The notes beneath the pieces were generated by a model. It was not told where the DNA came from. It saw nothing but the letters and a program-made list of their open reading frames with translations, and made no database searches. From Mycobacteroides salmoniphilum (GTDB taxonomy: Bacteria; Actinomycetota; Actinomycetes; Mycobacteriales; Mycobacteriaceae): a stretch of 64,000 nt of DNA. The position numbers and the translations under genes are program-made. Shown one piece after another: positions 1 to 34,897 of the stretch (the stretch's first letter is position 1; each line of letters opens with the position of its first letter). The stretch covers positions 4,154,001 through 4,218,000 of the forward strand of contig NZ_CP024633.1 of NCBI RefSeq assembly GCF_004924335.1, in the 5' to 3' direction.

Positions 1-454
1 CATCGGCGGACAGGGTCTGGTCGTAGAGCGGTCGATACCCCGCAGAGAGGTACAGCGCCTTGGCCTCGGGCTGGCGCGGGCCGGTGGTGAGGTAGATGCG
101 CCGGTATCCGCGACCGCGGATCTCCTGCTCCAGTGCGGCCAGGGTGCGCACCGCCAGGCCCTGACGGCGATGCGCGCTCGACGTCCAGATGCGTTTGAGC
201 TCCGCGGTATCGGCGTCATACCGCTGGAACGCGCCACCGGTCACAGCCACACCGCCCTGCACGCCGATCAGCAGCCCTCCGTCGGGAGCGCTGAAGTGGA
301 CGGCCGGATAGTTGACCAGGAACTCGTGATGCTCGTCGAGAGTCCCGCCGTATCGCGTGCTGTATTCCACCGCCAACTCGGCGAGCAGCGGAGCGGCCAG
401 CGGGTCCTGTTGCTGCACCGTCGTGAACTGCAGCAGATCCTCACACGCCGTCAT
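1..454 (-). CDS. GNAT-family N-acetyltransferase (3' end outside window)
   Basis: The reading frame opens at an ATG one base after the stop of the solute-binding protein gene and runs off the left edge, so only about 151 residues are visible. The central stretch RRQGLAVRTLAALE is the acetyl-CoA pyrophosphate-binding motif (R/Q-x-x-G-x-G/A) of the GNAT fold, and a later EAKALYLSAGY segment is the usual C-terminal strand-helix pattern. GNAT enzymes move an acetyl group from acetyl-CoA to an amine; the substrate cannot be read here. The gene is last in a four-gene unit with an amino-acid ABC importer, which suggests, without proving, a small amine or amino-acid substrate. Confidence 0.8.
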   Translation of the reverse strand, partial: MTACEDLLQFTTVQQQDPLAAPLLAELAVEYSTRYGGTLDEHHEFLVNYPAVHFSAPDGGLLIGVQGGVAVTGGAFQRYDADTAELKRIWTSSAHRRQGLAVRTLAALEQEIRGRGYRRIYLTTGPRQPEAKALYLSAGYRPLYDQTLSAD

Positions 455-455
455 G

Positions 456-1388
456 TCATCCCTGCCTCGGTAGTCCGCGGGGGTTCACTTCGGACCGACT
501 CACTGCTTCGTTCTCCAATCCCCAGCGCTGCAACACCTTACGATACGTGCCGTCGGCAATGGCATGGTTGACGGCATCGGCGATGGCGCGCACCAGTCCA
601 TTGCCCTTCTTGGTGAGCACCGCGATCTCCCCCTGCAGCGCCGCCCCCGCACCGGAAAAGGTACCGACCAACTTGGTTTGCCCGGTAGCCTGAGAATGAA
701 ACACCGCCGTCGGGTTGGGACCCACGTACGCATCGATGCGCCCCGACGCCAACGCCAGGTAATAGCCGGTGGTCTGCTGGAAGTACTTCAGGTCGGCGGC
801 GGGAAGACCCGCCGCGACATTCTGTTCGTTCCACTGCACCAGCAATGCTTCCTGGTTAGTACCTGACCCGACGCCGATGGTCTTACCGGCGATATCCCTG
901 GCACCCTTGACCTTCCAGTCCAGGGATCGCCGGGCCTCAAAGGAGACGTTGTCCAACCGGTATGTGGCGAAGTCGAACTTCTCCTTGCGCTCCTCGGTCA
1001 CCGTCACATTCGAAATGAACGCGTCGACCTCGCCCGAATCCACCTTGACGAAGTTCTGCGCCCAATCCGCCGAACGCAGGTCGACCCGCAGCCCCAGAAT
1101 GTCTGCCACCAGATAGGCGAAATCCGTCTCGATCCCGATCATCGTCTTGTCGTCATCGGCGTAGAAGCGCAGCGGCGGTGCGGAATTGGCATCGCCGGTG
1201 ACAATCAGGGTGCCACGCTTGCGGATGGCATCGGGCACCTCGGCGGCGATGGCGTCCGCCGTGGCGGCACGCACCCGATCCTGGTTCGGGCTCAGATTGA
1301 ACGACGAGGATGCGCCGGGCTCCGCGCCCCCGGCACAACCGGTGAGGACAACCATCATCGTGCAGAACAACGCGATACAACCCTTCAC
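456..1388 (-). CDS. Amino-acid ABC transporter substrate-binding lipoprotein (SBP family 3)
   Basis: A 310-residue protein with a lipoprotein signal: a short charged start, a hydrophobic stretch and the lipobox LTGC with Cys18 as the lipid anchor. The mature part follows the family 3 (glutamine/polar amino acid) pattern: RKRGTLIVTGD at the domain start, then PPLRFYADD, IGIETDFAYLVADILGL and, further on, SNVTVTEERKEKFDFATYR, the signature of this family. It should be tethered outside the membrane and capture an amino acid or opine-like ligand for the neighbouring permease. Its start overlaps the ATPase stop by 4 bp (ATGA), so translation is coupled. The ligand is not predictable. Confidence 0.9.
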   Translation of the reverse strand: MKGCIALFCTMMVVLTGCAGGAEPGASSSFNLSPNQDRVRAATADAIAAEVPDAIRKRGTLIVTGDANSAPPLRFYADDDKTMIGIETDFAYLVADILGLRVDLRSADWAQNFVKVDSGEVDAFISNVTVTEERKEKFDFATYRLDNVSFEARRSLDWKVKGARDIAGKTIGVGSGTNQEALLVQWNEQNVAAGLPAADLKYFQQTTGYYLALASGRIDAYVGPNPTAVFHSQATGQTKLVGTFSGAGAALQGEIAVLTKKGNGLVRAIADAVNHAIADGTYRKVLQRWGLENEAVSRSEVNPRGLPRQG

Positions 1389-2146
1389 GCCAGCACCTTT
1401 GACAGGAAGCCGACGGTCCGCGGATGCGATGGGTTGTCCAGCAGCTCTTCCGGCGGACCCTGCTCGACGATGGCGCCATGATCCATGAAGACCACGGTGT
1501 CGGCGATCTCCCGGGCAAGCCCGATCTCGTGCGTCACGATCACCAAGGTGGCACCGTCACGGGCCAGCTGGCGGATCACATCGAGCACCTCGGTGACCAA
1601 CTCGGGATCCAGAGCCGACGTGGGCTCGTCGAACAGAATGACCTTGGGCCGCAATGCCAAAGCGCGCGCGATGGCCACCCGTTGTTGCTGGCCCCCGGAT
1701 AGCCGGCGCGGATACTCTGCCACCTTGTCGGCAACCCCCACCCGTTCGAGCAGCCGGGTCGCCTCGGCCACCAGCTCAGCACGCGGCGCCCGCCGCGCTG
1801 CCAGGGGCGCCTCGATGACGTTCTCCAGCACCGTCATATGCGGAAACAGATTGAAGTTCTGGAACACGAAGCCGACCTGCGAACGCTGCCGCAGAATGGC
1901 CCTTTCCGAGAGCTCGTAGAGCACCGATCCACGCTGCCGGTAACCGATGAGCTCGCCGTCGATGCGGATGGTCCCGCCGTCCACCTTCTCCAAGTGATTC
2001 AGGGTGCGCAGCAGCGTCGACTTCCCCGAGCCCGACGGCCCGATGATGACCGTCACCTCTCCCTGCCGCACAGTCAGATTCACATCGCGCAGCGCAACCA
2101 CCTGGCCGTAGGACTTGCGCACCCCACGCACCTCGATGGTGCTCAT
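1385..2146 (-). CDS. Polar amino-acid ABC transporter ATP-binding protein
   Basis: A 253-residue ATPase with all ABC hallmarks: Walker A GPSGSGKST near residue 36, a Q-loop in VFQNFNLFPHMTVLENV, the signature LSGGQQQR, Walker B VILFDEPTSALDPE and the switch His in IVTHEIG. The FNLFPHMTVLENV stretch is typical of the GlnQ/HisP subfamily, which matches the family 3 binding protein next door. It energises uptake at the cytoplasmic face with the permease upstream. It overlaps both neighbours by 4 bp, so permease, ATPase, binding protein and acetyltransferase form one coupled operon. Confidence 0.93.
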   Translation of the reverse strand: MSTIEVRGVRKSYGQVVALRDVNLTVRQGEVTVIIGPSGSGKSTLLRTLNHLEKVDGGTIRIDGELIGYRQRGSVLYELSERAILRQRSQVGFVFQNFNLFPHMTVLENVIEAPLAARRAPRAELVAEATRLLERVGVADKVAEYPRRLSGGQQQRVAIARALALRPKVILFDEPTSALDPELVTEVLDVIRQLARDGATLVIVTHEIGLAREIADTVVFMDHGAIVEQGPPEELLDNPSHPRTVGFLSKVLA

Positions 2147-3024
2147 CGGTGTGCGCCCCGGGCGTAATGCCGTTCGATGTAGTACTGCACGATGGTCAGC
2201 ACCGACGTGATGACGATGTACCAGACTGTCGCCACCATGAGCAGCGGCACCACCCGTCCGTTACGCCCGAATATCACCTGCACCTGGTAGAAGAGATCGG
2301 CGATGGCCATGGTGGACACAATGGACGTGCCCTTCACCAGACTGATGACCTCGTTCGCAGCGTTGGGCATGACCGACCGCATGGCTTGCGGCAGCACGAT
2401 CCGAAAGAACTGACGGCGCCGGGGAATCCCCAGGGCCGCCGCGGCTTCCAATTGCCCCTCGTCGACGGACAGGATGCCGCCCCGAATGATCTCGGCGAAG
2501 TAGGCGCCCTGATGCAGAGTCAACCCGATCACGGCGGCGGTCAGGCCGCTCAACAGCTCGTTGGTGTCGACGGTGATCAGGCTCGGCCCGAACGGGATCC
2601 CGAAGCTGATGCTGTCGTACAGGTAGGCGATGTTGAACCAGAACAGCAGCTGCACGATCAGCGGTATGGACCGGAATATCCACACGTAGGTCCACGAGAT
2701 GACCTTCAGGACGGGATTGTTGGACAGGCGTGCGGCCGCCAGCGCCACCCCCAGGACGAACCCGAGCACCGTGCCGTAGATGGTGAGCCGGATGGTCAGC
2801 CATAGCGCCGCCAGCACCGACTTGGCGGTGAAGTACCGCGCGAACGTCGGCCAGTCCCACCCCGGGTTTCGCACCAGACCGTGCACGAACATGGCCACGA
2901 ACAGCAGCGCGACGGCAGAAAGAATCCAGTTGCCCGGACGTGCCCGGCGCCGTACCCGCAGCACCGCCTCGGCATCGTCGTCGGACGCCCGGGCGCGCGG
3001 CGGCGCAGCGGGTGCCGATGTCAT
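2143..3024 (-). CDS. Polar amino-acid ABC transporter permease (HisM/GlnP type)
   Basis: A 293-residue membrane protein. A basic cytoplasmic N-terminus of about 30 residues precedes a hydrophobic segment (WILSAVALLFVAMFVHGL), and further membrane spans follow. The ATPase-docking EAA loop is clear: EIIRGGILSVDEGQLEAA followed by ALGIPRRR. This is the signature of the HisM/GlnP permease family, where a single permease usually acts as a homodimer. It is the first gene of the operon, divergent from the PPOX gene across about 120 bp that should hold the promoter. The substrate is probably a polar amino acid, by family. Confidence 0.92.
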   Translation of the reverse strand: MTSAPAAPPRARASDDDAEAVLRVRRRARPGNWILSAVALLFVAMFVHGLVRNPGWDWPTFARYFTAKSVLAALWLTIRLTIYGTVLGFVLGVALAAARLSNNPVLKVISWTYVWIFRSIPLIVQLLFWFNIAYLYDSISFGIPFGPSLITVDTNELLSGLTAAVIGLTLHQGAYFAEIIRGGILSVDEGQLEAAAALGIPRRRQFFRIVLPQAMRSVMPNAANEVISLVKGTSIVSTMAIADLFYQVQVIFGRNGRVVPLLMVATVWYIVITSVLTIVQYYIERHYARGAHR

Positions 3025-3147
3025 GCGGTCGAACCTAGGAACACCGACCAGTGCACAACAGTCTTTGGCTCCCGGCGAATCGAACGGCGGCTATCCGTCA
3101 TGTTCGACCGGGGAAGCATCCGCGCCGCTCGAATGTTCAAATAGGAC

Positions 3148-3543
3148 ATGCCAGAAATCCCCGCGGGCTTTGACGATCTCCTGAAACAGCAGCTCTACGG
3201 CCACCTAGCCACGGTCGGTAGCGACGGTTCCGCGCAGTCCAGTCCGATGTGGTTCAGCTGGGACGGGGAGCGGGTGCGCTTCACCCATACCAACAAGCGG
3301 GCCAAGTTCCGCAACATCCGGTCCGAACCCCGGGTCGCCTTTTCCATCCTGGACCCCACCAATCCGTACCGGTACCTGGAGGTGCGCGGCACCATCGACC
3401 AGATCGACGACGATCCGACGGGGTCATTCATCCAAGAGCTTGCCCACCTGTACCAGGCACCGTGGGCCGGAACGAGCACCGGCGACGAGGCAGACCGCGT
3501 CATTCTGTACCTGCGGCCCACCAAGTTCGTGAGCCACGGCTAG
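3148..3543 (+). CDS. PPOX-class F420/FMN-dependent oxidoreductase
   Basis: A 131-residue protein of the pyridoxamine-phosphate-oxidase-like split-barrel family. Visible features are LLKQQLYGHLATVGSDGSAQSSPMW at the N-terminus, the FSWDGERVRFTHTNKRAKFRNI strand-helix region and RYLEVRGTI. The pattern closely follows the mycobacterial Rv1155-type proteins, which bind F420, so F420 is the likelier cofactor; FMN cannot be excluded. The physiological substrate is unknown. The 3' end overlaps the convergent TetR gene by 4 bp. The start follows a weak AGGA element. Confidence 0.85.
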   Translation: MPEIPAGFDDLLKQQLYGHLATVGSDGSAQSSPMWFSWDGERVRFTHTNKRAKFRNIRSEPRVAFSILDPTNPYRYLEVRGTIDQIDDDPTGSFIQELAHLYQAPWAGTSTGDEADRVILYLRPTKFVSHG

Positions 3544-23072: not shown

Positions 23073-23088
23073 CTGCGACGTACCTCCG

Positions 23089-23153
23089 CGTCGACACGCC
23101 ACGTTATGGCGGGTCCGTATCGCACATTGCCGCCATAACGCGGCGTGTCGACG
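23089..23153. terminator. Long bidirectional hairpin between convergent genes
   Basis: The arms 23089-23112 and 23130-23153 are 24 bp each and match in 23 of 24 positions (one A-C mismatch), with a 17-base loop. It fills the gap between the M50 protease stop (23072) and the stop of the convergent DUF3151 gene (23163). There is no U-tract on either side, which is usual for mycobacterial intrinsic terminators. Confidence 0.7.
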
Positions 23154-23162
23154 GAAGTGACG

Positions 23163-23695: not shown

Positions 23696-24475
23696 ATGGC
23701 GAACCCCACCGGTGGAAATTCCGAGGCCAAGCCCGACGCACAGGGCGGCAAGTCCGCGGACCCCGCCGAGCAGTCGGATAGCGCCGCGAACACCCCGGAG
23801 ATATCCGATACCGCCGACACCGGCCCGGTTCCCCCGCTCGATGATGCCCAGACCGTCGTGATGGCTCCGGCTAAGCCCGACGTTCCGCGCTACACGGCAC
23901 CGGGATTCGACGCCAACAAGACCGAGATGATCGCGCCCGTCGGCGAGGATCCGAAGACCGAGCTCATGGCGCCGCTGGCGACCCAGGCGCGCCCCAAGGT
24001 TGCGACCCCGGAGACGATCGCACCTCGCAAGGAAGAGAAGCGCAGCTGGGGCTGGGTGATCGCGCTGGCACTCGTCGTCGCCGCGCTGGCTGCGGTGATC
24101 GTCCTCGCCGCGGTCGTCATCTCGCGCACCAGCGCACCGAAGGCGTCACAAGAAGAGCTGGTGCGCACCAGCATTCAGAACTACGACAACGCCATCCAGA
24201 CCGGCAACCTGGCCGCGCTGCGGACCATCACATGCGGCGAAACCCGCGACGGTTATGTCCGCTACCCCGACGCCGAGTGGTCCCAGACGTACCAGAAGGT
24301 GGCGGCTGCCAAGCAGTACCCGGTGGTGGCCAGCATCGACGAGGTTGTGGTCAATGGCGAGCACGCCGAGGCCAACGTCACCTCGTTCATGGCGTTCGCG
24401 CCGCAGACCCGGTCATCGCGCAGCTTCGATCTGCAGTTCCGCGACAAGGAATGGAAGATCTGCCAGTCCGACTAG
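23696..24475 (+). CDS. Membrane-anchored NTF2-like protein (Rv0361-like)
   Basis: A 259-residue protein in three parts. Residues 1-115 are a disordered, acidic and Pro-rich cytoplasmic region with two similar stretches (AQTVVMAPAKPDVPRYTAP, PKTELMAPLATQARPKVATP). One transmembrane helix follows at about 119-143 (WGWVIALALVVAALAAVIVLAAVVI). The external domain has the NTF2-like pattern QEELVRTSIQNYDNAIQTGNLAALRTITCGE and ends SRSFDLQFRDKEWKICQSD. The function is unknown. Its stop codon overlaps that of the giant repeat gene on the other strand (4 bp). Confidence 0.8.
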   Translation: MANPTGGNSEAKPDAQGGKSADPAEQSDSAANTPEISDTADTGPVPPLDDAQTVVMAPAKPDVPRYTAPGFDANKTEMIAPVGEDPKTELMAPLATQARPKVATPETIAPRKEEKRSWGWVIALALVVAALAAVIVLAAVVISRTSAPKASQEELVRTSIQNYDNAIQTGNLAALRTITCGETRDGYVRYPDAEWSQTYQKVAAAKQYPVVASIDEVVVNGEHAEANVTSFMAFAPQTRSSRSFDLQFRDKEWKICQSD

Positions 24476-27400
24476 CTCCCGGACCCCGACGACGAGCCGC
24501 CGCCACCGGATGACGTGCTGGCCGACTTCGAACTGCTCGACGTGCCGGCACCCGACTCACCGGCGCTACCGGGTGTGCCCTTCGTACCGCCTCGACCACC
24601 GGGGCCGCCCGCGCCCGCAGTGTGTGAACCCTTGACGGACGACGAGTTGCCGCCATTTCCGCCGGTGCCGCCCCGATGGATCGGACCACCGGCACCGCCG
24701 GTGCCTCCCGCACCACCCTTGCTGTCCCCGTCTGTCGACTGGGAGTGACCACCACGGCCTCCGCCGCCGCCGTCGCCCAGGCCCCGGGAATCGCCTCCGA
24801 CACCACCCTTGCCACCGGTATTGGTCTTGCCGGTATCCCCGTTACCGGAGGCATCGCCCCCGGCACCACCCTTACCGCCGTTACCGATCGCACCCGAGGT
24901 TCCGCCGGTGCCACCGTTTCCACCGGTCGCGGGTCCGGTCTTCACAACGCCGTTGGTGGTCTCGGCCTTGCCTCCGGCACCTCCGCTACCGCCATTGCCG
25001 ACGACGGCGTGCGAACTCGCGCCATTACCGCCACTGCCGCCCACCGCCGTACCTCCCAGGCTCGACGAGGCACCGCCCGCACCACCGGAACCTCCGTCGC
25101 CGGCAAGACCCCCCGAGGCGCCGCCGGTACCACCGGTACCACCCTTGGTTTCCCCGTAGGTCGTCTTGGCCTCACCACCGGCGCCACCGGTGCCGCCGGT
25201 GCCCGCAATCAGGCCGCCGCTACCACCAACACCGCCATTTCCACCGGTGCCCGGCTCGGATGTCCGGGTATCAAACGAATTGGATGTGCCACCTTGGCCA
25301 CCCACTCCACCGTTCCCCAGCATGCCCGCACTGCCGCCGTCACCACCGGCACCGCCGGTCGAGGTCCCGGTGAAGAAGTTACTGCCCTCTCCGCCCTTGC
25401 CGCCGGCACCGCCGTCACCCGCCAGCGCACCACCCTTGCCGCCGTTACCACCCGCGCCGCCGACACCCGTCTTGCCATCGGCCGTCGCGGATGCGTCGCC
25501 GCCCTTCCCGCCCGCGCCGCCGGTACCGACCAAGCCGGCATTGCCACCGTCGCCGCCCTTCTGACCGGGCAGACCGTCACCACCGGCACCGCCGTTACCG
25601 AACAGCAGGCCAGCGTTACCACCCTTTTGACCGGGTAATCCCTTGCCGCCGTTACCGATCAGCAGACCACCGTCCTGGCCCAGTCCGCCGTCACCGATGA
25701 TCAGGCCGCCCGGGCCGAACAGCGGACGCTGGGTGTACACGCCCGCGGCGTTGGGTGAACCATCGCCGATGATCAACCCACCCGGTCCGAACAGCGGACG
25801 CCCACCGAACAGATTCCAGGCCGATCCCCCATTGCCGACATTGGTGGCTCCACACTTGCCCGCAGCGCCCGAAACACAGTCGGCATAGGCCTGTTCCGCG
25901 ATCGCCTTATCCGCAGCCGATTTCGCCGAAGCGAGCCGATCCTTCGCAGCGGCGGCGGCGTAATCCGCGGCGACCTTGTCGGCGGCCGCCTTGGCGGCGG
26001 CATAGCCGTCGGCCTTCTGTTGCGCGGCGGCGAGCTCATCGGCGGCCTTCTGCGCATCCGACCTCGCCGCTGCCGCCTGATCGGCGGCGGCCTGGGCGGC
26101 TACCTCCGCGGCCGCCCGGTCACCCGCGGCCGTCTGTGCGGCAGCTGTCGCCTGTGCGGCCAACGCCTCCGCGGCTTGGGCGGCACGCTCGGCCTCATCG
26201 GCCTGCTCGGCGGCGATCCGGGCCGCGTTCTGTGCCTCGGCAACCTCGGGCCCGGGAACCCCCGCGTTCACCGCGGTATCGAGCGCAATCTGCCCCGCCG
26301 CAGCCTGTTTCGCGGTCTCGACGGCCTTGGCGCGGGCGGCCGATGCGTCGGACACGGCCGTTCCGGCAGCGATACCCGTGCTCTCGGCGACACCCGTCTT
26401 GTCGGTGACCGCGCGCTGGGCGGATGACTGCTGGGTGTCACGTGCCTGTGCCAACTGAGCGGCAGCGCCGACCTGGATCTCGGTGGACTGGACCTTCTGA
26501 TCTGCCTGTGCTTGCGGGTCGGTCTGAGCTGCCGCCGCCGCTTCGGCGAAGATCGGACGGCAGTCGGCGGCAATGACATTGAGACGCTGCTTGGCTTCCT
26601 CCGCGGCCTTGTCCATCGCTACCCGGTCCGCAGCGGCCTTCTCGGCCGCCAGCTTCTGGAACGCCGCCTGCCCCTCAGCCGCCTGGACGGCCGCCGCGCT
26701 GGAGGCACTTGCCGCCTCAATTTGCGCAGCCGCCGCACGATCCTCGGCGGCCTTGGCGGAATCGACTGCCGCCGCCTGGGCCGAAGCATCCTTATCCTTC
26801 AGCGCCTGCTCGGCCGCGGCCCGGTCACGGTCGGCTGCGGCCTGCGCCTCGGCGAATATCTTGGCGGCGTTGGCAGCACGCGCAGAGGACGCGGCAGCAG
26901 CCTCCGCGGAACGCAGGGCATCGGCCGCGGCCTTGTCGACGGCGGCCTTGTCGACTCCCGCCTGCACCGCCGCATCGATGACGGCCTTCTGATCACCGAC
27001 TGCCTGCTCTGCGGCGGCCTTCGCCGCGGCCGCCGCATCGGTCGCCGCCTGCACCGCATCAGCGGTCTGGGTGGCTTTAACCGCAGCCGCATCCTTGGCG
27101 GCCTGCGCATCCTGGGCGGCCTTCGCCGCGTCGGCCAGTGCCTTGTCGGCAACGGCTTTGGCAGCCTGCGCATCGGCGGCGGCCTTGGCATCCTGAGCAG
27201 ACTTGTCGCCAGCAGCCGTAGAGGCATCCACTGCGGCCTTTGCCGCAGTGGCGGCATCAGCCAACGCCTTATCAGCTGCGGCCTTTGCCGCGGCCGCCGC
27301 GTCAGCCGACGTAGACGCGCCGGAAAGCTTCTGGTCCGCAGCATCTTTCGCAGTGGCAGCATCTTTGGCGGCCTGGTCCGCGCCGGCCAGCGCGCCATCG

Positions 27401-30400
27401 GTGACGGCCTTGGCCGCCGCGGCGGCATCGGCAGCCGTCTTGGCATCGGCCGCGCTGCGGTCCGCGGCGTCCTTGATACCGGCGGCATCGGCAGCAGCCT
27501 TCGCCGCATCGGCTGCCTTCTGATCGGCGGCGGTCTTGGCCGCCGCGGCATCGGCGGCGGCCTGACTCGCGTTCGCCGATGCCTGATTTGCCGCATCGGA
27601 TGTCGAGAGAGCGTCCTTGGCCGCTTGATCGGCCGCAACCAATGCCTGGTCGGCGGCCGCCTTCGCGGCTTGTGCAGCGGCGGCGGCCTGCGCCGCCTGC
27701 CCGGCCTGTACGCCCGCCGCATCCGACGCGGACACTGCACCCTGAACGGCACTGTCCGCACCCGCCAACGCCTGGTCGGCACTGGCCTTCACCGCCGCGG
27801 CAGCGTCGGCCGCCGCCTTGGCCTCAGCAGCCTTCTGATCCGCAGCAGCCGTAGCCGCCACCGCATCCGAGGCCACCTTCGCCGCATCGGCCGCCTTCTG
27901 ATCAGCGGTCTCCTTGGCGGACGTCGCATCGACCGCGGTCTGGATGGCGAGTGCCGCTTTATCCGCGGCATCCTTCGCCGCGGTGGCCGCGTCGGTCGCG
28001 CCCGTATTTGCCTCTGTCAGCGCCTGGTCCGCGCTGGCCTTTACCGCCGCGGCAGCGTCGGCCGCCGCCTTGGCCTCGGTAGCCTTCTGATCCGCAACAG
28101 CCTTGGCCGCCACCGCATCCGACGCAGCCTTGCCCGCATCAGCGAACGCCTTGTCCGCCACAGACTTGGCCGCCCCCGCCGCATCATCGGCAGCCTGCGC
28201 GGCCACGGACTTGTCGGCAGCATCCTGTGCCGCTGCGGCGGCATCCGCGGCAGCCTTCGACGTATCCGCAAATACCTTGTCAGCGGCCACCTTTGCCGCC
28301 GCCGCCACGTCCGCGGCGGTACCCGCTTCGGTGGCCCTCAGATCCGCAGCGGAGGTAGCGACAGCGGCATCAGCAGCGGATTTGCCCGCATCGGCCAATG
28401 CCGCATCCGCAGCGGCCTTCACCGCTGCTGCCGCATCGGCAGCAGTCTTGGCAGCAGTTGCTGTGCCGGAGGCCTCATTGGCGCTCGCCGTCGCATCGGT
28501 AGCGGTCTTACCCGCATCGGCAAACGCCTTGTCCGCCACAGACTTGATCGATGCGGCCGCATCATCGGCAGCCTGCGCGGCCGCGGACTTGTCGGCGGCA
28601 TCCTGTGCCGCTGCGGCGGCATCAGCGGCAGCCTTATCGGCGTCTGCCAATGCCGTGTCGGCTGCCGTCTTCGCGGCCGTCGCGGCATCCGACGCCGTCC
28701 GGGCATCCACGGCCTTCTGATCGGCCGCGAGCTTGGCAGCAGCCGCATCCACAGCCGCCCTGTCCGCATCTGCCAACACCCCGTCGGCCGCCGCCTTGTC
28801 CGTGGTGGCAGCATCCGCCGCGGCCCTGGCATCGGCCGCCTTCTGATCGGCGGCGGTCTTGGCAGCAGCCGCATCCACAGCCGCCTTATCGGCATCCGTG
28901 AGCGCCGTGTCCGCAGCGACCTTCACCGCCGCAGCCGCATCGGCGGCCGCCTTCGCCGCAGCGGCCTTGCCAGCGGTATCGTCGGCAGCCGCCGCCGCAT
29001 CACTGGCCGTCTTGGCTGCGTCGGTCAAAGCCTTGTCCGCATTGGCCTTTACCGTCGCCGCGTCCGAGGCCGCGGCACTCGCTTCGGCGGCCTTCTGATC
29101 GGCGACGGTCTTGGCCGCGGCCGCATCGCTCGCGGCCGTGTTCGCATCCGAAAGCGCCTTGTCCGCAGTGACCTTCACCGCCGCAGCAGCATCGGCCACC
29201 GTCTTCGCATCCACGGCTTGTTGGTCTGCGACGGTCTTGGCGGCAGCCGCATCCGAGGCCGCGTTACCCGCGTCAGCCAACGCCTGATCCGCGGCCACCT
29301 TCACCGCCGCAGCCGCATCGGCAGCCGACTTAGCCACCGCAGCATGCTGATCCGCGACCATCTTCGCCGCCTGCGCATCCGAGGCGGCCGTGTTCGCATC
29401 CGCCAGTGCAGCATCGGCAGTGGTCTTCGCCGCATCCTTGGCCGACTTGTCAGCGTCGGCGGCCGCCTGCGCCGCCGTGGCATCGGTCAGCGCGGAGGCG
29501 GCAGCAGCAGCCTTGGTCTGTGCGTCACCCAGCGCAGCGTCCGCCGCCAACTTAGCCGTGGCGGCGGCCTGCGCGGCAGCCTTGGCGCCGGTGGCGTTTT
29601 GTGCGGCCGCAGCGGCGGCATCCGCCGCGGTCGTGGCCGCTGCGGAGGCATGCGCCGAGGCTTGATCGGCGGCGGCCTTGGCCACATCGGCATTGGTGGC
29701 GGCCGTGGCCGCGTCGGCAGCCGCTTGGTCGGCAACGGTCTTGGCGGCGGCAGCATTACCGGCAGCTGTGTTCGCATCGGCCAACGCCTGATCTGCCGTC
29801 ACCTTCACCGCCGCAGCCGCATCAGCAGCCGTCTTCGCCGCCGCCGCATTCTGATCCGCGACCGTCTTCGCCGCGGCCGCATCACTAGCGGCCGTGTTCG
29901 CATCCGAAAGCGCCTTGTCCGCAGTGACCTTCACCGCCGCAGCCGCATCAGCAGCCGACTTCGCATCCACGGCTTGTTGGTCTGCGACGGTCTTGGCCGT
30001 CGCAGCGGCCGCAGCGGCATTCGTCGCGTCGGTCAAGGCCTGGTCCGTCACCACCTTCGCCGCCGTGGTGGTGGTGACGGCCTGCTGTGCCTCGACGACC
30101 TTCTGATCGGCGAGGCTCTTGGCGGCGGCGGCATTACCGGCAGCTGTGTTCGCATCGGCCAACGCCTGATCTGCCGTCACCTTCACCGCCGCAGCCGCAT
30201 CGGCGGCCGTCTTCGCCGCCGCCGCATTCTGATCCGCGACCGTCTTGGCCGTCGCCGCGGCCGCAGCGGCATTCGTCGCGTCGGTCAAGGCCTGGTCCGT
30301 CACCACCTTCGCCGCCGTGGTGGTCGTGACAGCCTGCTGCGCGGTACTGACCTGCTGCGCGGCAGCCGTGACGTTGTTGTTGGCGGTGTTCGCGGTGGTC

Positions 30401-33400
30401 TGTGCCGCATTGCGCGCCGCGATCGCCGCGGGCTCCTGGCTGGTGGCCGTCGCCGCCGCGGCATCGGCAGCCGTCTTGGCAGCAGCGGCGTTGTCGGCGG
30501 TGGTCTTGGCGGTGGCCTCGGTGGCCTGCGCCTGAGTCACCGCGATATTGCCCGCCGTAAGCCGCTGCTGGGCTCCTGCCAGGAGCGTGCCCAGCGATAC
30601 CAGGTTCGCGGCGATGCCGACGAGGTTGGTTGAGTAGTAGGTGACGTCTGCCTGGGCCTGATCGCGCTGCTGCTGTGCTGTGACCGTAGCGGCGTGGGCA
30701 TTTTGATAAGCGGTCTGTGTGCTCTGAGCCGTCGCGGCGGCGGCCACTGCGTCATCCTTGGCCTTCTGAATGGCATCGACGACCTTCTGTGCATCGTTTA
30801 ATGCCTTGTCCGCATTGACCTTCGCTGTATCAGCGTTCTGCTTGGCGGTGTTGGCCGCGGTCAGTGCGGCCTGCGCGTTGGACACCGCCTGGTTACTTGC
30901 GGTGGCGTTGGTTTGCGCGGTCGTCAGCGCGGCATCAGCGGCGTTCTTCGCCGCCAACGCATTGGCAGCAGCCTGATCGGCGGCGGCCTTGGCCGCATCC
31001 TTAGTGGCCTTATCCGCATTCGCCGCATCCGCAGCAGTCTTGGCCTGCGCCGCTGCTTGATCGGCGGCTATCTTGGCGGCGTCTTTGGTCGTCTTGTCGG
31101 CGTCGGCAGCGGTCTTAGCAGCAGTGGCATCGGCCAACGCCTGATTACTCGCAGCAGCGTTCGTCTGCGCGCCAGTGAGCGCGGTATCAGCAGCAGTCTT
31201 CGCCGCAGCAGCATTGGCAGCAGCCTGATCCGCAGCGGCCTTGGCAGCATCCTTAGCAGCCTTATCGGCATTCGCCGCATCCGAGGCGGTCTTAGCCTGC
31301 GCCGCCGCCTGATCCGCAGCCGTCTTGGCCGCCACCGCATCCGCAGCCACCTGATCGGCAGCCACCCGCGCCGCATCCTTAGCAGCCTTATCCGCATTCG
31401 CCGCATCCGACACCGACTTCGCCTGCGCCGCCGCCTGATCCGCAGCCGTCTTGGCAGCAGCAGCATTCGCGGCAGTCTGATCGGCAGCCGATGTGGCCGC
31501 ATCCTTCGCGGCCTTGTCCGCATTCGCCGCATCCGAGACAGTCTTGGCCTGCGCCGCCACCTGATCGGCAACCGTCTTGGCCGCCACCGCATCCGCTGAG
31601 GCCTGCGCCGCATCGGCGTCCTTCTGATCTGCAATGGCTTTGGCCGCGGCGGCATCTGCGGACGCCCTGCCGGCGTCGGCCAGTACGCCATCGGCAGCAG
31701 TCTTGGCCGCGGCGGCGTCGCTCGCCGCCTTGCCCGCATCTATTGCCCGTTGGCCTGCTGCCACCGCGGCGTCCGCGGCCGCTCTGGCAGTCGTATCTGC
31801 CTGTGCTGCCGCCTGATCGGCGGCTATCTTGGCGGCGTCTTTGGTCGCCTTGTCGGCGTCGGCGGCCGCCTTGGCGGCAGCGGCGTCGGCCAACGCCTGA
31901 TTGCTTGTGGCAGCGTTCGTCTGCGCGCCAGTGAGCGCGGTATCAGCAGCAGTCTTCGCCGCAGCAGCATTGGCAGCAGCCTGATCCGCAGCGGCCTTGG
32001 CAGCATCCTTAGTGGCCTTATCGGCGTTCACTGCATCCGAGGCGGTCTTGGCTTGCGCGGCTACCTGGTCCGCAGAAGTCTTGGCGGCCAACGCATCCGC
32101 AGCCACCTGATCAGCAGCCACCCGCGCCGCATCCTTAGTCGCCTTATCGGCGTTCGCCGCATCCGAAGCAGTCTTGGCCTGCGCCGCCGCCCCATCCGCA
32201 GAAGTCTTGGCGGCCAAAGCATCCGCAGCCACCTGATCAGCAGCCACCCGCGCCGCATCCTTCGCAGCCTTATCGGCATTCGCCGCATCCGACACCGACT
32301 TCGCCTGCCCCGCAGCCCCATCCGCAGCAGTCTTAGCAGCCAACGCATCCGCAGCCACCTGATCAGCAGCCGACTTCACAGCGGCGGCCTCGGCCAGGGC
32401 CGCATCACTCGCGGCCGCCCTGGTCTGGGCATCCGTCAACGCGGTGTCGGCGGCGGCCTTGGCAGCGTCCTTGGCCGCTTTATCCGCCGTAGCCGCATCC
32501 AGTGCGGCCTTAGCATCCTGATACGCCTTGTCCCCCACCGCCGCATGACTCTGCGCAGTAGCAAAAGCCTGCTCCGCCGCCGTCTTCGCTGCCGCCGCAT
32601 CCGCAGCAGCCTTGGCAGCATCCGCCGCCCGCGACGCCGCAGCATCCTTGGCCGCCGCCGCATCCGTTGCCGCCTTTGACGCATCGGTCAATGCCGCTTC
32701 CGCGGCAGCCTTCGTGGCATCTTTGACGGCCTTATCGGCATCGGCAGCGGCCTGCGCGGCATCCTTCGTGGCCTTGTCCGCGGCGGCCGCATCCGCGGCC
32801 GACTTCGCTTGTGTAGCCGCCTGATCGGCCGTGGTCTTGGCCGCCAACGCATCCACGGCAGCCTTGTCCGCGGCCGATTTGGCGGCAGCGGCATCGACCG
32901 AGGCCGTGGCGGCGACTGCAGCCTTGGCCTGCGCGTTCGTAGACGCGGTGTCCGCCGCGGTCTTGGCCGCCAGCGCATCCACGGATGCCTTGGCCGCATC
33001 GGCCGCCTTCGACGCCGCAGCATCCTTCGCCGCCGCGGCATCGGAAGCAGCCCTTGAGGCATCCGCCAACGCAGCATCCGCGGCCGTCTTCGCCGCATCC
33101 TTGACGGCCTTATCGGCATCGGCAGCGGCCTTGGCCGCACTGGCATCCGCCAGTGCCTTATCGCCGGCCGCAGCCTTGGCCTGCGCATCAGTCACTACCG
33201 CATCGGCAGCTGTCTTGGTGGCCAAAGCATCCGCGGAGGCCTTGGTGGCATCCGCCGCCCGCGACGCCGCAGCATCCTTCGCCGCCGCGGCATCGGAAGC
33301 AGCCCTTGAGGCATCCGCCAACGCGGCATCCGCGGCCGTCTTCTGTGCTGCCGCGTCAGTGGCCGCCTGCTGCGCCGCGGCTGCCTTGCCCGCAGCATCG

Positions 33401-34542
33401 TTGGCTGCCACGGCCGCTGCTTGGGCGACCCTGTCGGCGTCGGCGCGCGCCGCGTCGGCGGCGGCCTTGGCGGCGTCCTTGGCCGCTTTATCCGCCGTAG
33501 CCGCATCCAGTGCGGCCTTAGCATCCTGATACGCCTTGTCCCCCACCGCCGCATGACTCTGCGCAGTAGCAAAAGCCTGCTCCGCCGCCGTCTTCGCTGC
33601 CGCCGCATCCGCAGCATCCTTGGCAGCATCCGCCGCCCGCGACGCCGCAGCATCCTTGGCCGCCGCCGCATCCTGGGCGATTTTGTCCGCGTTGACACGC
33701 GCGGTATCGGCGTTGGTCTTGGCCGCCAAAGCATCCACGGCGGCACTGGCAGCTGCCGCTTGGGCGGCCGTGGCATCGGACAAGACCTTGTCGTTGGCCG
33801 CGGCCTTGCTCTGCGCGTCGGCCAGTGCAGCATCGGCGGCGGCCCTGGCCGCGTCGGCGGCCTGCTGCTGCGCGGCGGCCGCGTCAAGTGCTGCCTTGGC
33901 GTCCTGATACGCCTTGTCACCCACCGCCGCATGGCTTTGCGCGTCGGCAAAAGCCTTCTCGGCGGCGGCCTTCGCCGCATCGGCCGCCTGCTGCTGCGCG
34001 GCGGCGGCATCGGCGGCAGCCTTCGCATCCTGGTAGGCCTTCTCATTGGCAGCCGCGGCCGCCTGCGCGCTGGTTTGGCTGGCGGCCGCGGCCTCCAGAA
34101 TCGCCTGCGCATCCAGCGCTGCCCGAGCCGCATCATCGGCGTCATGACGCGCCTGTTCGGCCGCTGCCGCGGCCGCGGCAGCCTGCGCTTGTTTCTCGGC
34201 AACCGCCGGATTGGCGGCGGCATCGGCTGCCGCCCTGTCCGCTTCCGCCTTGCGCAGTGCCGCACGAGCAGCAGCATCGGCAGCGGCCTTGGCCATCAGG
34301 TCGGCAAGTGCGGCGGCACCGGCTGCGGTGTCCGCATAACCCTGCGCCTCGGAGGTCGGCGTCGAGCCCGGCGTCACGGCAACTGCGGGCAAGGATCCCG
34401 CGTAGGCCGTCAGACTGGTGTCACCGCTGAAAAGTAGGCGCTGCTTCTCGATGAGCGACTTGGAGACGGAGCTACTACCACCTGCCAGAAGGACAGCTGT
34501 CGCAAATATTGCGATGGCAGTTTTGGATCGCGATGACTGCAT
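24472..34542 (-). CDS. Giant exported Ala-rich helical-repeat protein with PGRS-like Gly-rich C-terminus
   Basis: From the ATG at 34542 (GAGG upstream) the product has about 3,356 residues; a more distal ATG at 34617 adds 25 residues that spoil the signal peptide. In order: a Sec-type signal (MQSSRSKTAIAIFATAVLLA); a short linker; about 2,800 residues made almost only of Ala, Asp, Lys, Gln, Thr and Val in heptads, built from a 42-residue unit such as AKTASDAANADKATKDAARV plus ADQVAADALAAKTSADQVAAQ; a break around residue 2657 with a Cys (NVIAADCRPIFAE); and from about residue 2894 a 460-residue Gly-rich domain (GGLIIGDGG, GNGGAGGDG, GGAGGKGGD) ending in a Ser/Gly tail. The Gly-Gly-X run resembles PE_PGRS proteins but no PE domain is present. 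It is presumably a secreted or surface fibre. No wall anchor was seen. It is flanked by Rv0361- and fba-like genes. Confidence 0.85.
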   Translation of the reverse strand: MQSSRSKTAIAIFATAVLLAGGSSSVSKSLIEKQRLLFSGDTSLTAYAGSLPAVAVTPGSTPTSEAQGYADTAAGAAALADLMAKAAADAAARAALRKAEADRAAADAAANPAVAEKQAQAAAAAAAAEQARHDADDAARAALDAQAILEAAAASQTSAQAAAAANEKAYQDAKAAADAAAAQQQAADAAKAAAEKAFADAQSHAAVGDKAYQDAKAALDAAAAQQQAADAARAAADAALADAQSKAAANDKVLSDATAAQAAAASAAVDALAAKTNADTARVNADKIAQDAAAAKDAAASRAADAAKDAADAAAAKTAAEQAFATAQSHAAVGDKAYQDAKAALDAATADKAAKDAAKAAADAARADADRVAQAAAVAANDAAGKAAAAQQAATDAAAQKTAADAALADASRAASDAAAAKDAAASRAADATKASADALATKTAADAVVTDAQAKAAAGDKALADASAAKAAADADKAVKDAAKTAADAALADASRAASDAAAAKDAAASKAADAAKASVDALAAKTAADTASTNAQAKAAVAATASVDAAAAKSAADKAAVDALAAKTTADQAATQAKSAADAAAADKATKDAAQAAADADKAVKDATKAAAEAALTDASKAATDAAAAKDAAASRAADAAKAAADAAAAKTAAEQAFATAQSHAAVGDKAYQDAKAALDAATADKAAKDAAKAAADTALTDAQTRAAASDAALAEAAAVKSAADQVAADALAAKTAADGAAGQAKSVSDAANADKAAKDAARVAADQVAADALAAKTSADGAAAQAKTASDAANADKATKDAARVAADQVAADALAAKTSADQVAAQAKTASDAVNADKATKDAAKAAADQAAANAAAAKTAADTALTGAQTNAATSNQALADAAAAKAAADADKATKDAAKIAADQAAAQADTTARAAADAAVAAGQRAIDAGKAASDAAAAKTAADGVLADAGRASADAAAAKAIADQKDADAAQASADAVAAKTVADQVAAQAKTVSDAANADKAAKDAATSAADQTAANAAAAKTAADQAAAQAKSVSDAANADKAAKDAARVAADQVAADAVAAKTAADQAAAQAKTASDAANADKAAKDAAKAAADQAAANAAAAKTAADTALTGAQTNAAASNQALADATAAKTAADADKTTKDAAKIAADQAAAQAKTAADAANADKATKDAAKAAADQAAANALAAKNAADAALTTAQTNATASNQAVSNAQAALTAANTAKQNADTAKVNADKALNDAQKVVDAIQKAKDDAVAAAATAQSTQTAYQNAHAATVTAQQQRDQAQADVTYYSTNLVGIAANLVSLGTLLAGAQQRLTAGNIAVTQAQATEATAKTTADNAAAAKTAADAAAATATSQEPAAIAARNAAQTTANTANNNVTAAAQQVSTAQQAVTTTTAAKVVTDQALTDATNAAAAAATAKTVADQNAAAAKTAADAAAAVKVTADQALADANTAAGNAAAAKSLADQKVVEAQQAVTTTTAAKVVTDQALTDATNAAAAAATAKTVADQQAVDAKSAADAAAAVKVTADKALSDANTAASDAAAAKTVADQNAAAAKTAADAAAAVKVTADQALADANTAAGNAAAAKTVADQAAADAATAATNADVAKAAADQASAHASAAATTAADAAAAAAQNATGAKAAAQAAATAKLAADAALGDAQTKAAAAASALTDATAAQAAADADKSAKDAAKTTADAALADANTAASDAQAAKMVADQHAAVAKSAADAAAAVKVAADQALADAGNAASDAAAAKTVADQQAVDAKTVADAAAAVKVTADKALSDANTAASDAAAAKTVADQKAAEASAAASDAATVKANADKALTDAAKTASDAAAAADDTAGKAAAAKAAADAAAAVKVAADTALTDADKAAVDAAAAKTAADQKAADARAAADAATTDKAAADGVLADADRAAVDAAAAKLAADQKAVDARTASDAATAAKTAADTALADADKAAADAAAAAQDAADKSAAAQAADDAAASIKSVADKAFADAGKTATDATASANEASGTATAAKTAADAAAAVKAAADAALADAGKSAADAAVATSAADLRATEAGTAADVAAAAKVAADKVFADTSKAAADAAAAAQDAADKSVAAQAADDAAGAAKSVADKAFADAGKAASDAVAAKAVADQKATEAKAAADAAAAVKASADQALTEANTGATDAATAAKDAADKAALAIQTAVDATSAKETADQKAADAAKVASDAVAATAAADQKAAEAKAAADAAAAVKASADQALAGADSAVQGAVSASDAAGVQAGQAAQAAAAAQAAKAAADQALVAADQAAKDALSTSDAANQASANASQAAADAAAAKTAADQKAADAAKAAADAAGIKDAADRSAADAKTAADAAAAAKAVTDGALAGADQAAKDAATAKDAADQKLSGASTSADAAAAAKAAADKALADAATAAKAAVDASTAAGDKSAQDAKAAADAQAAKAVADKALADAAKAAQDAQAAKDAAAVKATQTADAVQAATDAAAAAKAAAEQAVGDQKAVIDAAVQAGVDKAAVDKAAADALRSAEAAAASSARAANAAKIFAEAQAAADRDRAAAEQALKDKDASAQAAAVDSAKAAEDRAAAAQIEAASASSAAAVQAAEGQAAFQKLAAEKAAADRVAMDKAAEEAKQRLNVIAADCRPIFAEAAAAAQTDPQAQADQKVQSTEIQVGAAAQLAQARDTQQSSAQRAVTDKTGVAESTGIAAGTAVSDASAARAKAVETAKQAAAGQIALDTAVNAGVPGPEVAEAQNAARIAAEQADEAERAAQAAEALAAQATAAAQTAAGDRAAAEVAAQAAADQAAAARSDAQKAADELAAAQQKADGYAAAKAAADKVAADYAAAAAKDRLASAKSAADKAIAEQAYADCVSGAAGKCGATNVGNGGSAWNLFGGRPLFGPGGLIIGDGSPNAAGVYTQRPLFGPGGLIIGDGGLGQDGGLLIGNGGKGLPGQKGGNAGLLFGNGGAGGDGLPGQKGGDGGNAGLVGTGGAGGKGGDASATADGKTGVGGAGGNGGKGGALAGDGGAGGKGGEGSNFFTGTSTGGAGGDGGSAGMLGNGGVGGQGGTSNSFDTRTSEPGTGGNGGVGGSGGLIAGTGGTGGAGGEAKTTYGETKGGTGGTGGASGGLAGDGGSGGAGGASSSLGGTAVGGSGGNGASSHAVVGNGGSGGAGGKAETTNGVVKTGPATGGNGGTGGTSGAIGNGGKGGAGGDASGNGDTGKTNTGGKGGVGGDSRGLGDGGGGGRGGHSQSTDGDSKGGAGGTGGAGGPIHRGGTGGNGGNSSSVKGSHTAGAGGPGGRGGTKGTPGSAGESGAGTSSSSKSASTSSGGGGSSSGSGS
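32446..32665 (-). repeat. Near-identical 220-bp direct repeat, copy A
   Basis: This segment matches 33454-33673 with about two differences noticed by eye (at 32464 and near 32630). The offset is 1,008 bp, eight repeat units, so unequal crossing-over would keep the frame. Confidence 0.8.
33454..33673 (-). repeat. Near-identical 220-bp direct repeat, copy B
   Basis: Partner of 32446-32665. Its high identity against otherwise diverged units points to a recent in-frame duplication or gene conversion within the giant gene. Confidence 0.8.
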
Positions 34543-34897
34543 GGCTGCCTCACTTGCCTGGCAATCCGGCACACGCCAATGTGGGCCGGTAGACGGAGAG
34601 TAGACGCAATGAGGCATATATGCGCTGGGTATCGAAGAAATTACCTGAGAAAATCATAAACATGCATTTAAGAACGTATAAATACTAGATTTAGTGAAAT
34701 TTAAAGGATTTGCTATCTATCTGACTCCAGGGTCAGCTAATGGACAATTGACAACCGTGTCTACTAAGGATGTAGTGCCGTCGCCAGAGGGGACCCGCCT
34801 GGGATCCGAAGTCCCACGAATTCCGAAAACGCGGGCACTCACAGCGAAATATGAACGGAGCGAACATGCATGATCACTGCACACGTGTCAGATAGGA
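34543..34897. other. AT-rich intergenic region upstream of the giant gene
   Basis: About 355 bp hold no convincing gene. The part 34631-34720 is about 26 % GC by hand count, against well over 60 % for the surroundings. It should contain the giant gene's promoter on the minus strand (candidate AT-rich -10s are too many to choose from) and is a likely target for the xenogeneic silencer Lsr2. A 32-codon frame from GTG at 34773 on the plus strand was not accepted as a gene. Confidence 0.6.
34748..34776 (+). promoter_or_regulatory. Possible plus-strand promoter facing an empty interval
   Basis: TTGACA (34748-34753), 17 bp, TGTAGT (34771-34776) would fire rightwards, yet no plus-strand gene follows. 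It could make a non-coding or antisense transcript against the following minus-strand gene, or be chance. Confidence 0.25.

Follow-up and report, generated by a model that had tools for sequence, protein, structure and literature searches.

A conserved giant alanine-rich heptad protein of Mycobacteroides with a predicted hairpin turn at its centre

We analysed a 64,000-nt stretch of the Mycobacteroides salmoniphilum genome (the window, to whose positions all gene coordinates refer) around a gene encoding a giant protein, here called the stalk protein. This gene is conserved, and its product combines a heptad rod, a conserved central element and an exchangeable base. An earlier inspection of the letters alone (the sequence-only reading) had described an unbroken frame of 3,356 codons at this position. 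The frame indeed holds, and lies on the minus strand, which had been left unstated. As that reading also had it, the locus lies between fba and a gene similar to Rv0361 (the Rv number is the one given in that reading), whose convergent stop overlaps that of the stalk gene. An alternative, longer start exists at 34617; the ATG at 34542 is the likely start because the ribosome site AAGTGAGGCAG stands just 5' of it in all six aligned sequences, the window included, and because in one relative (G074) the equivalent ATG is the earliest start in the frame. Conserved blocks stand out upstream, for example a strongly conserved CCTTAGTAGACACGGTTGTCAATTG-like block 5' of the gene; scanning this leader against Rfam for a riboswitch gave no match. 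The coordinates of all features are collected in Table 1.

Table 1. Features of the stalk gene, its product and its upstream neighbour.
Feature	Residues	Window positions	Strand	Basis
Frame encoding the giant stalk protein (3,356 aa)	1-3356	24472..34542	(-)	start ATG 34542, stop 24472-24474
Leader/promoter region, conserved blocks amid otherwise diverged sequence		34543..34897	(-)	alignment of 6 sequences
Export/anchor segment, basic start then hydrophobic core TAIAIFATAVLLAGG	1-28	34459..34542	(-)	hydropathy and by eye
N-arm, one core heptad position ~84% Ala	112-1298	30649..34209	(-)	heptad phase and periodicity
Conserved non-repetitive element enclosing the turn	1251-1371	30430-30792	(-)	alignment
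Predicted hairpin turn	1306-1313	30604..30627	(-)	alignment, AlphaFold2, Foldseek, VIA-align
C-arm, one core position ~94% Ala, ends before AVGDQK	1314-2513	27004..30603	(-)	heptad phase and periodicity
Helical base, maybe with another, shorter hairpin whose turn is GVPGPE	2514-2888	25879..27003	(-)	alignment, low-confidence AlphaFold2
Cys pair C2889 and C2897 at junction	2889-2897	25852..25878	(-)	kept in 6/6 aligned sequences
Two copies of (G)RPLFGPGGLIIGDG	2914-2952	25687..25803	(-)	alignment; resembles GRPLI motif preceding PGRS domains
PGRS-like Gly-rich tail, Ser/Gly end		24475..25686	(-)	Pfam scans
164-aa protein with N-terminal hydrophobic segment		34898..35392	(-)	gene content of clade

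The heptad rod extends from about residue 112 to 2513, and alanine makes up almost half of it. Over residues 111-2513, the power at a period of 3.50 reached 113 (1 is expected, and the maximum in 2,000 shuffles was 7.6), as compared with 1.1, 0.4 and 0.6 at periods of 3.6, 3.667 and 3.75, respectively. The repeat unit in the DNA is 126 bp, corresponding to 42 residues. Heptad phase is near-constant, within ~0.7 residue, between residues ~127 and 2600, with some low-power windows, and the register continues across the central element, hereafter the tip. The periodicity is thus exact, at 3.50 and 42 residues. The helical heptad rod joined to a PGRS-like tail that had been read from the letters is supported, and the description of a fibre-like, probably exported protein was likewise upheld. 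The fusion was also rightly placed outside familiar families: scans against Pfam and NCBIfam (E <= 0.01) revealed no curated family except a borderline PGRS match. An antisense open frame of 1,373 aa lies inside the rod (window 26512-30633). From one orthologue to another, the longest antisense frames vary in length; we read them as composition artefacts.

The stalk gene is real, conserved and under strong purifying selection, as evident from complete orthologues and a low ratio of nonsynonymous to synonymous substitution rates (dN/dS). Searching 396 genomes of the genus with the N-terminus (E <= 0.01) yielded matches in 17, seven of them strong (E <= 4.3e-8, the window genome included) and ten weak. 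The weak matches (E 0.0016-0.0087, in frames of 52-548 aa) were dropped; a crude screen of seven of them found a long Ala-rich frame in none. Four orthologous frames are complete, with 3,183, 3,380, 3,370 and 3,304 aa counted from the first possible start, and one further orthologue (G193) is split by a contig end. The frame is unbroken in all five complete genes compared, the window's included. Across six regions and four species, every one of 24 comparisons gave a dN/dS between 0.077 and 0.265.

To describe the distribution of the gene, we used a clade of 11 Mycobacteroides genomes defined by at least 86% identity in the Rv0361-like protein; the other listed matches to this protein, outside the clade, showed 63% or less. 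The gene is present in six of the 11, in line with the patchy occurrence implied earlier. Three stalk-free genomes (G214, G244 and G267) have fba ~60 bases or less from the Rv0361-like gene. Genomes with and without the stalk interleave on a two-gene tree (e.g., G074 with G322, and the window genome with G193 and G214; the node placing G171 has a support of 0.13), which suggests repeated loss of the gene as the simplest reading. A plasmid scan gave no match, and a viral scan returned 194 pattern stretches, yet no relative. At the empty site of G322, the 164-aa neighbour survives as a decayed remnant (L062 924-1113), a probable loss scar. In G171, the Rv0361-like gene and fba are separated by two other genes (L063 784-3398), one of which resembles a glycosyltransferase by eye.

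Within the rod, the tip is predicted to form a hairpin turn. AlphaFold2 folded this 121-residue element as a helical hairpin with a predicted local distance difference test score (pLDDT) of 92; the helices of the model run antiparallel, and Foldseek and VIA-align superposed it on other hairpins. By sequence, neither a tip profile nor a 511-aa piece of the base matched any solved structure. The dN/dS of the tip is 0.08-0.15, so it is not fast-evolving, and a constant structural or ligand role is therefore favoured over antigenic variation. An order-wide search with the tip matched seven of 348 genomes, namely the window genome, G606 and five from one genus. The latter five were dropped as probable sensor kinases (one of the five read, by eye).

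We then compared arm lengths, measured between homologous markers (of the PAVAE, DVTYY and AVGDQK types; the ends in G606 were set by eye). The N- and C-arms comprise 1187 and 1215 residues in the window genome, G112 and G074, as against 1187/1019 in G116, 1145/1215 in G334, 725/837 in G255, 515/543 in G263 and 963/999 in G606. In each of the eight proteins measured, which represent four lineages, the tip is found 46-54% of the way along the rod, with arm length varying 2.3-fold. Both arms of the G263 protein, a distant relative, are exactly 672 residues shorter than those of the window protein, and wherever an arm of a marker-measured protein differs in length from its window counterpart, it does so by a multiple of 7. 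A fit of residue sizes between the arms favoured registers near the one that the tip defines, modestly and post hoc.

At the N-terminus, the hydrophobic segment of the signal peptide proposed by the sequence-only reading is present, but no clear signal-peptidase site is visible after it by eye; the window protein has LLAGGSS there and, also by eye, no lipobox cysteine. At the other end, the Gly-rich tail stands but the Pfam PGRS match (PF21526) is borderline only: with a cut-off of 27 bits, it scores 28.4 when the genome stretch is scanned and 19.1 in the scan of the whole protein. The period-3 Gly power of the tail, 2.6, falls inside the shuffle range. The motifs ahead of the tail read GGRPLFGPGG and, in the second copy, RPLFGPGG, and G334 carries a single copy of the (G)RPLFGPGGLIIGDG motif. 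Among 15 PGRS loci from other mycobacteria, GRPLI or GRPIL precedes the repeats in nine, five are without the motif, and one has QRPLI in an unrelated-looking frame. The stalk tail is the sole PGRS match found in its genome, in which five PE domain matches occur, each in a frame of 112-139 aa. At the junction between base and tail, C2889 and C2897 could possibly form a disulphide. The last 110-130 residues come in two versions among the six sequences, one in the window genome, G074 and G334 and the other in G193, G112 and G116. This division cuts across the species tree and suggests that tail alleles (window 24475-24900 and its orthologues) have been exchanged. Elsewhere in the window genome (C1, ~853.8-859.5 kb; L118 5800-11511), two adjoining exported-looking proteins of 779 and 999 aa differ in their main parts and have in common a C-terminal stretch of ~187 residues, 59% identical and with a Ser/Gly end, which may be a shared surface-retention tail.

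The base is exchangeable among relatives. In Mycobacteroides, base helices follow the rod, and after them come GRPLF and the PGRS-like tail; G255 has a low-complexity tail that retains RPVFGP. G263 departs from this at either end of the rod: its N-terminus is of another kind and its C-terminal domain looks globular, and each of the two is related to a separate exported protein whose gene adjoins the stalk gene (653 aa in G255 and 641 aa in G263). In G606, from another genus, the start is lipoprotein-like by eye (ITASAC). Of 30 genomes searched, 14 encode a member of the family of the separate protein (the 11 clade genomes, G255, G263 and G606), and the 16 others do not; since five of these clade genomes are stalk-free, the family follows the lineages in which the stalk occurs, though not strictly the stalk itself. 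Pfam and NCBIfam scans of the separate protein (E <= 0.1) gave no match, and sequence searches identified no solved relative. The 164-aa neighbour upstream is intact in 6/6 stalk-bearing and 0/5 stalk-free clade genomes; we rejected it as a dedicated partner, given that its family is present in 22 of 29 genomes searched.

We consider it fairly probable, judging from sequence and structural models, that the protein is an exported single-chain antiparallel hairpin stalk, displayed on the surface from a PGRS base and used for contact or spacing. Its two Ala-rich heptad arms, of ~1,190 and ~1,215 residues, would pair antiparallel, with the chain turning back once at the small conserved central tip. 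The helix rise is 0.1485 nm per residue, so arms of 1187-1215 residues would give a stiff rod of ~176-180 nm (~0.18 micrometres), its two ends lying together at the base. The short helical region, GRPLF and the PGRS-like domain would hold this stalk on the mycobacterial outer membrane, and the tip would point outward from the cell. It would most likely serve as a long arm for contact or spacing, be it an adhesin, a cell-to-cell spacer or a receptor probe. We infer pairing along the full arms, surface location, PGRS anchoring, a ligand and the function.

Several observations weigh against such a stalk. Strict pairing predicts matched losses, so that losses in one arm count against it: G116 is without 196 residues in the C-arm only and G334 without 42 in the N-arm only, with an assembly error possible in both cases. 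Differences in multiples of 7 would also follow from gain or loss of whole repeats without pairing. The heptad phase is inconstant in G606, the most distant protein, whose strongest period is 5.25 (42/8), and an arm-to-arm charge fit gave no unique register. Among structural matches, the top-ranked Foldseek hit, 9hmx, and one colicin row, 2b5u, superposed poorly (template-modelling (TM) scores of 0.43 and 0.42); no Foldseek E-value was 0.001 or lower, and helical hairpins match each other readily. The AlphaFold2 model of the base has a mean pLDDT of 59 and a predicted TM score (pTM) of 0.35, and the PGRS tail, at a pLDDT of ~22-37, has no confident fold. In five of the 11 clade genomes, the separate exported protein, proposed as a partner, is retained although the stalk is absent. 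Finally, the helical hairpin of a bacteriocin is reported to open (PMC12927319).

Alternatively, the rod might be straight, a parallel homo-oligomeric coiled coil or single helix of ~0.4 micrometres with the central element as a kink. We deem this unlikely: the heptad register runs uninterrupted across the tip and two orthologues changed in a single arm, as a straight rod would allow, but the tip is confidently predicted as a hairpin rather than a kinked helix, hairpins superpose on it, and it has stayed near the centre despite the 2.3-fold range in arm length. The single continuous 0.4-micrometre helix of the sequence-only reading is therefore probably wrong, the conserved mid-rod break being predicted as a tight hairpin; the folded stalk would reach roughly half that length. 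It is comparably improbable that a hairpin forms and stays inside the envelope, as a periplasmic or wall-embedded tether or spacer on the N-terminal hydrophobic segment. Without a clear cleavage site, this segment could be an anchor, and one of the solved hairpins listed by Foldseek and VIA-align belongs to RipA, which is an M. tuberculosis cell-wall hydrolase. However, the envelope is much thinner than 0.18 micrometres, and published reports place PGRS domains with GRPLI motifs on the outer surface.

Two further explanations seem very improbable. The amphipathic, very Ala-rich helix recalls stress-protection or ice-binding proteins; LEA and type I antifreeze-like families have 11-residue periods, whereas the power of the rod is 0.37 at 11/3 and 113 at 3.5, and such a role would leave the export segment and the conserved tip unexplained. 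An expanding low-complexity DNA of little function, kept open by codon bias, might account for the 126-bp repeats, the long antisense frames produced by composition and the absence of the gene from five of the 11 clade genomes. We find this just as hard to credit, since all 24 comparisons indicate purifying selection, the frame is unbroken in five complete genes and the upstream blocks are conserved.

The antiparallel hairpin stalk may be compared with known surface proteins. In the streptococcal antigen I/II adhesins (SpaP, BspA), Ala-rich repeats are reported to pair with a region further along the chain, forming a stalk that lifts the middle domain >50 nm off the cell (PMC7732690). The stalk protein, too, is a giant, probably exported protein in which two parts of one chain are proposed to pair. 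Whereas antigen I/II has a proline-rich partner strand, a globular V-domain in the middle and sortase anchoring, both strands would here be Ala-rich helices and the tip a bare turn; no LPXTG motif is visible in the translation, and the Pfam and NCBIfam scans gave no antigen I/II family match. The stalk may work like antigen I/II while belonging outside that family. The hairpin in the receptor-binding domain of colicin E has ~120 residues, against 2,400 in the stalk, at 12-17% identity; because helical hairpins match one another readily, we regard this likeness as one of shape, not kinship. The coiled-coil hairpins of RipA, Cg1735 and RipC are short and come with a hydrolase domain, and the superposition on 9hmx was poor. 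In a possible likeness to PE_PGRS proteins, a GRPL-type motif is followed by Gly-rich PGRS-like repeats, and two motif copies are reported for some PE_PGRS proteins too. Published work describes PGRS domains on the outer leaflet with a helical linker up to GRPLI (PMC9436101, PMC7550000). Unlike PE_PGRS, the stalk protein has a giant rod ahead of its PGRS-like part and no PE domain, PGRS being the sole entry of the whole-protein Pfam scan.

In the titles and abstract openings of the open-licence literature, we found no described protein of this kind. Tentatively, these proteins might constitute an undescribed mycobacterial class of single-chain surface arms, an antiparallel Ala-heptad hairpin of 75-180 nm whose arms change largely in step (by 42-residue or heptad multiples), with a receptor-like conserved tip and a swappable base. 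The bases would then be a PGRS sail, a lipid anchor or a globular domain that a dedicated exported partner also possesses. To our knowledge, the stalk would be the longest intramolecular helical hairpin, SMC and Rad50 included in the comparison. If this holds, mycobacteria would gain a single-chain, ruler-like surface arm on the nanometre scale, its length encoded by repeat number. As no PE_PGRS was found in the genome that encodes this PGRS-like domain, the proposed function of PGRS as a membrane anchor could be tested there without a PE domain; comparison with sister genomes that naturally lack the gene offers a way to test what the stalk does.

Outside the stalk locus, a short inverted-repeat-like sequence (window 23083-23160) is flanked by genes for an M50 peptidase and a DUF3151 protein, and a related sequence occurs elsewhere in the same genome.

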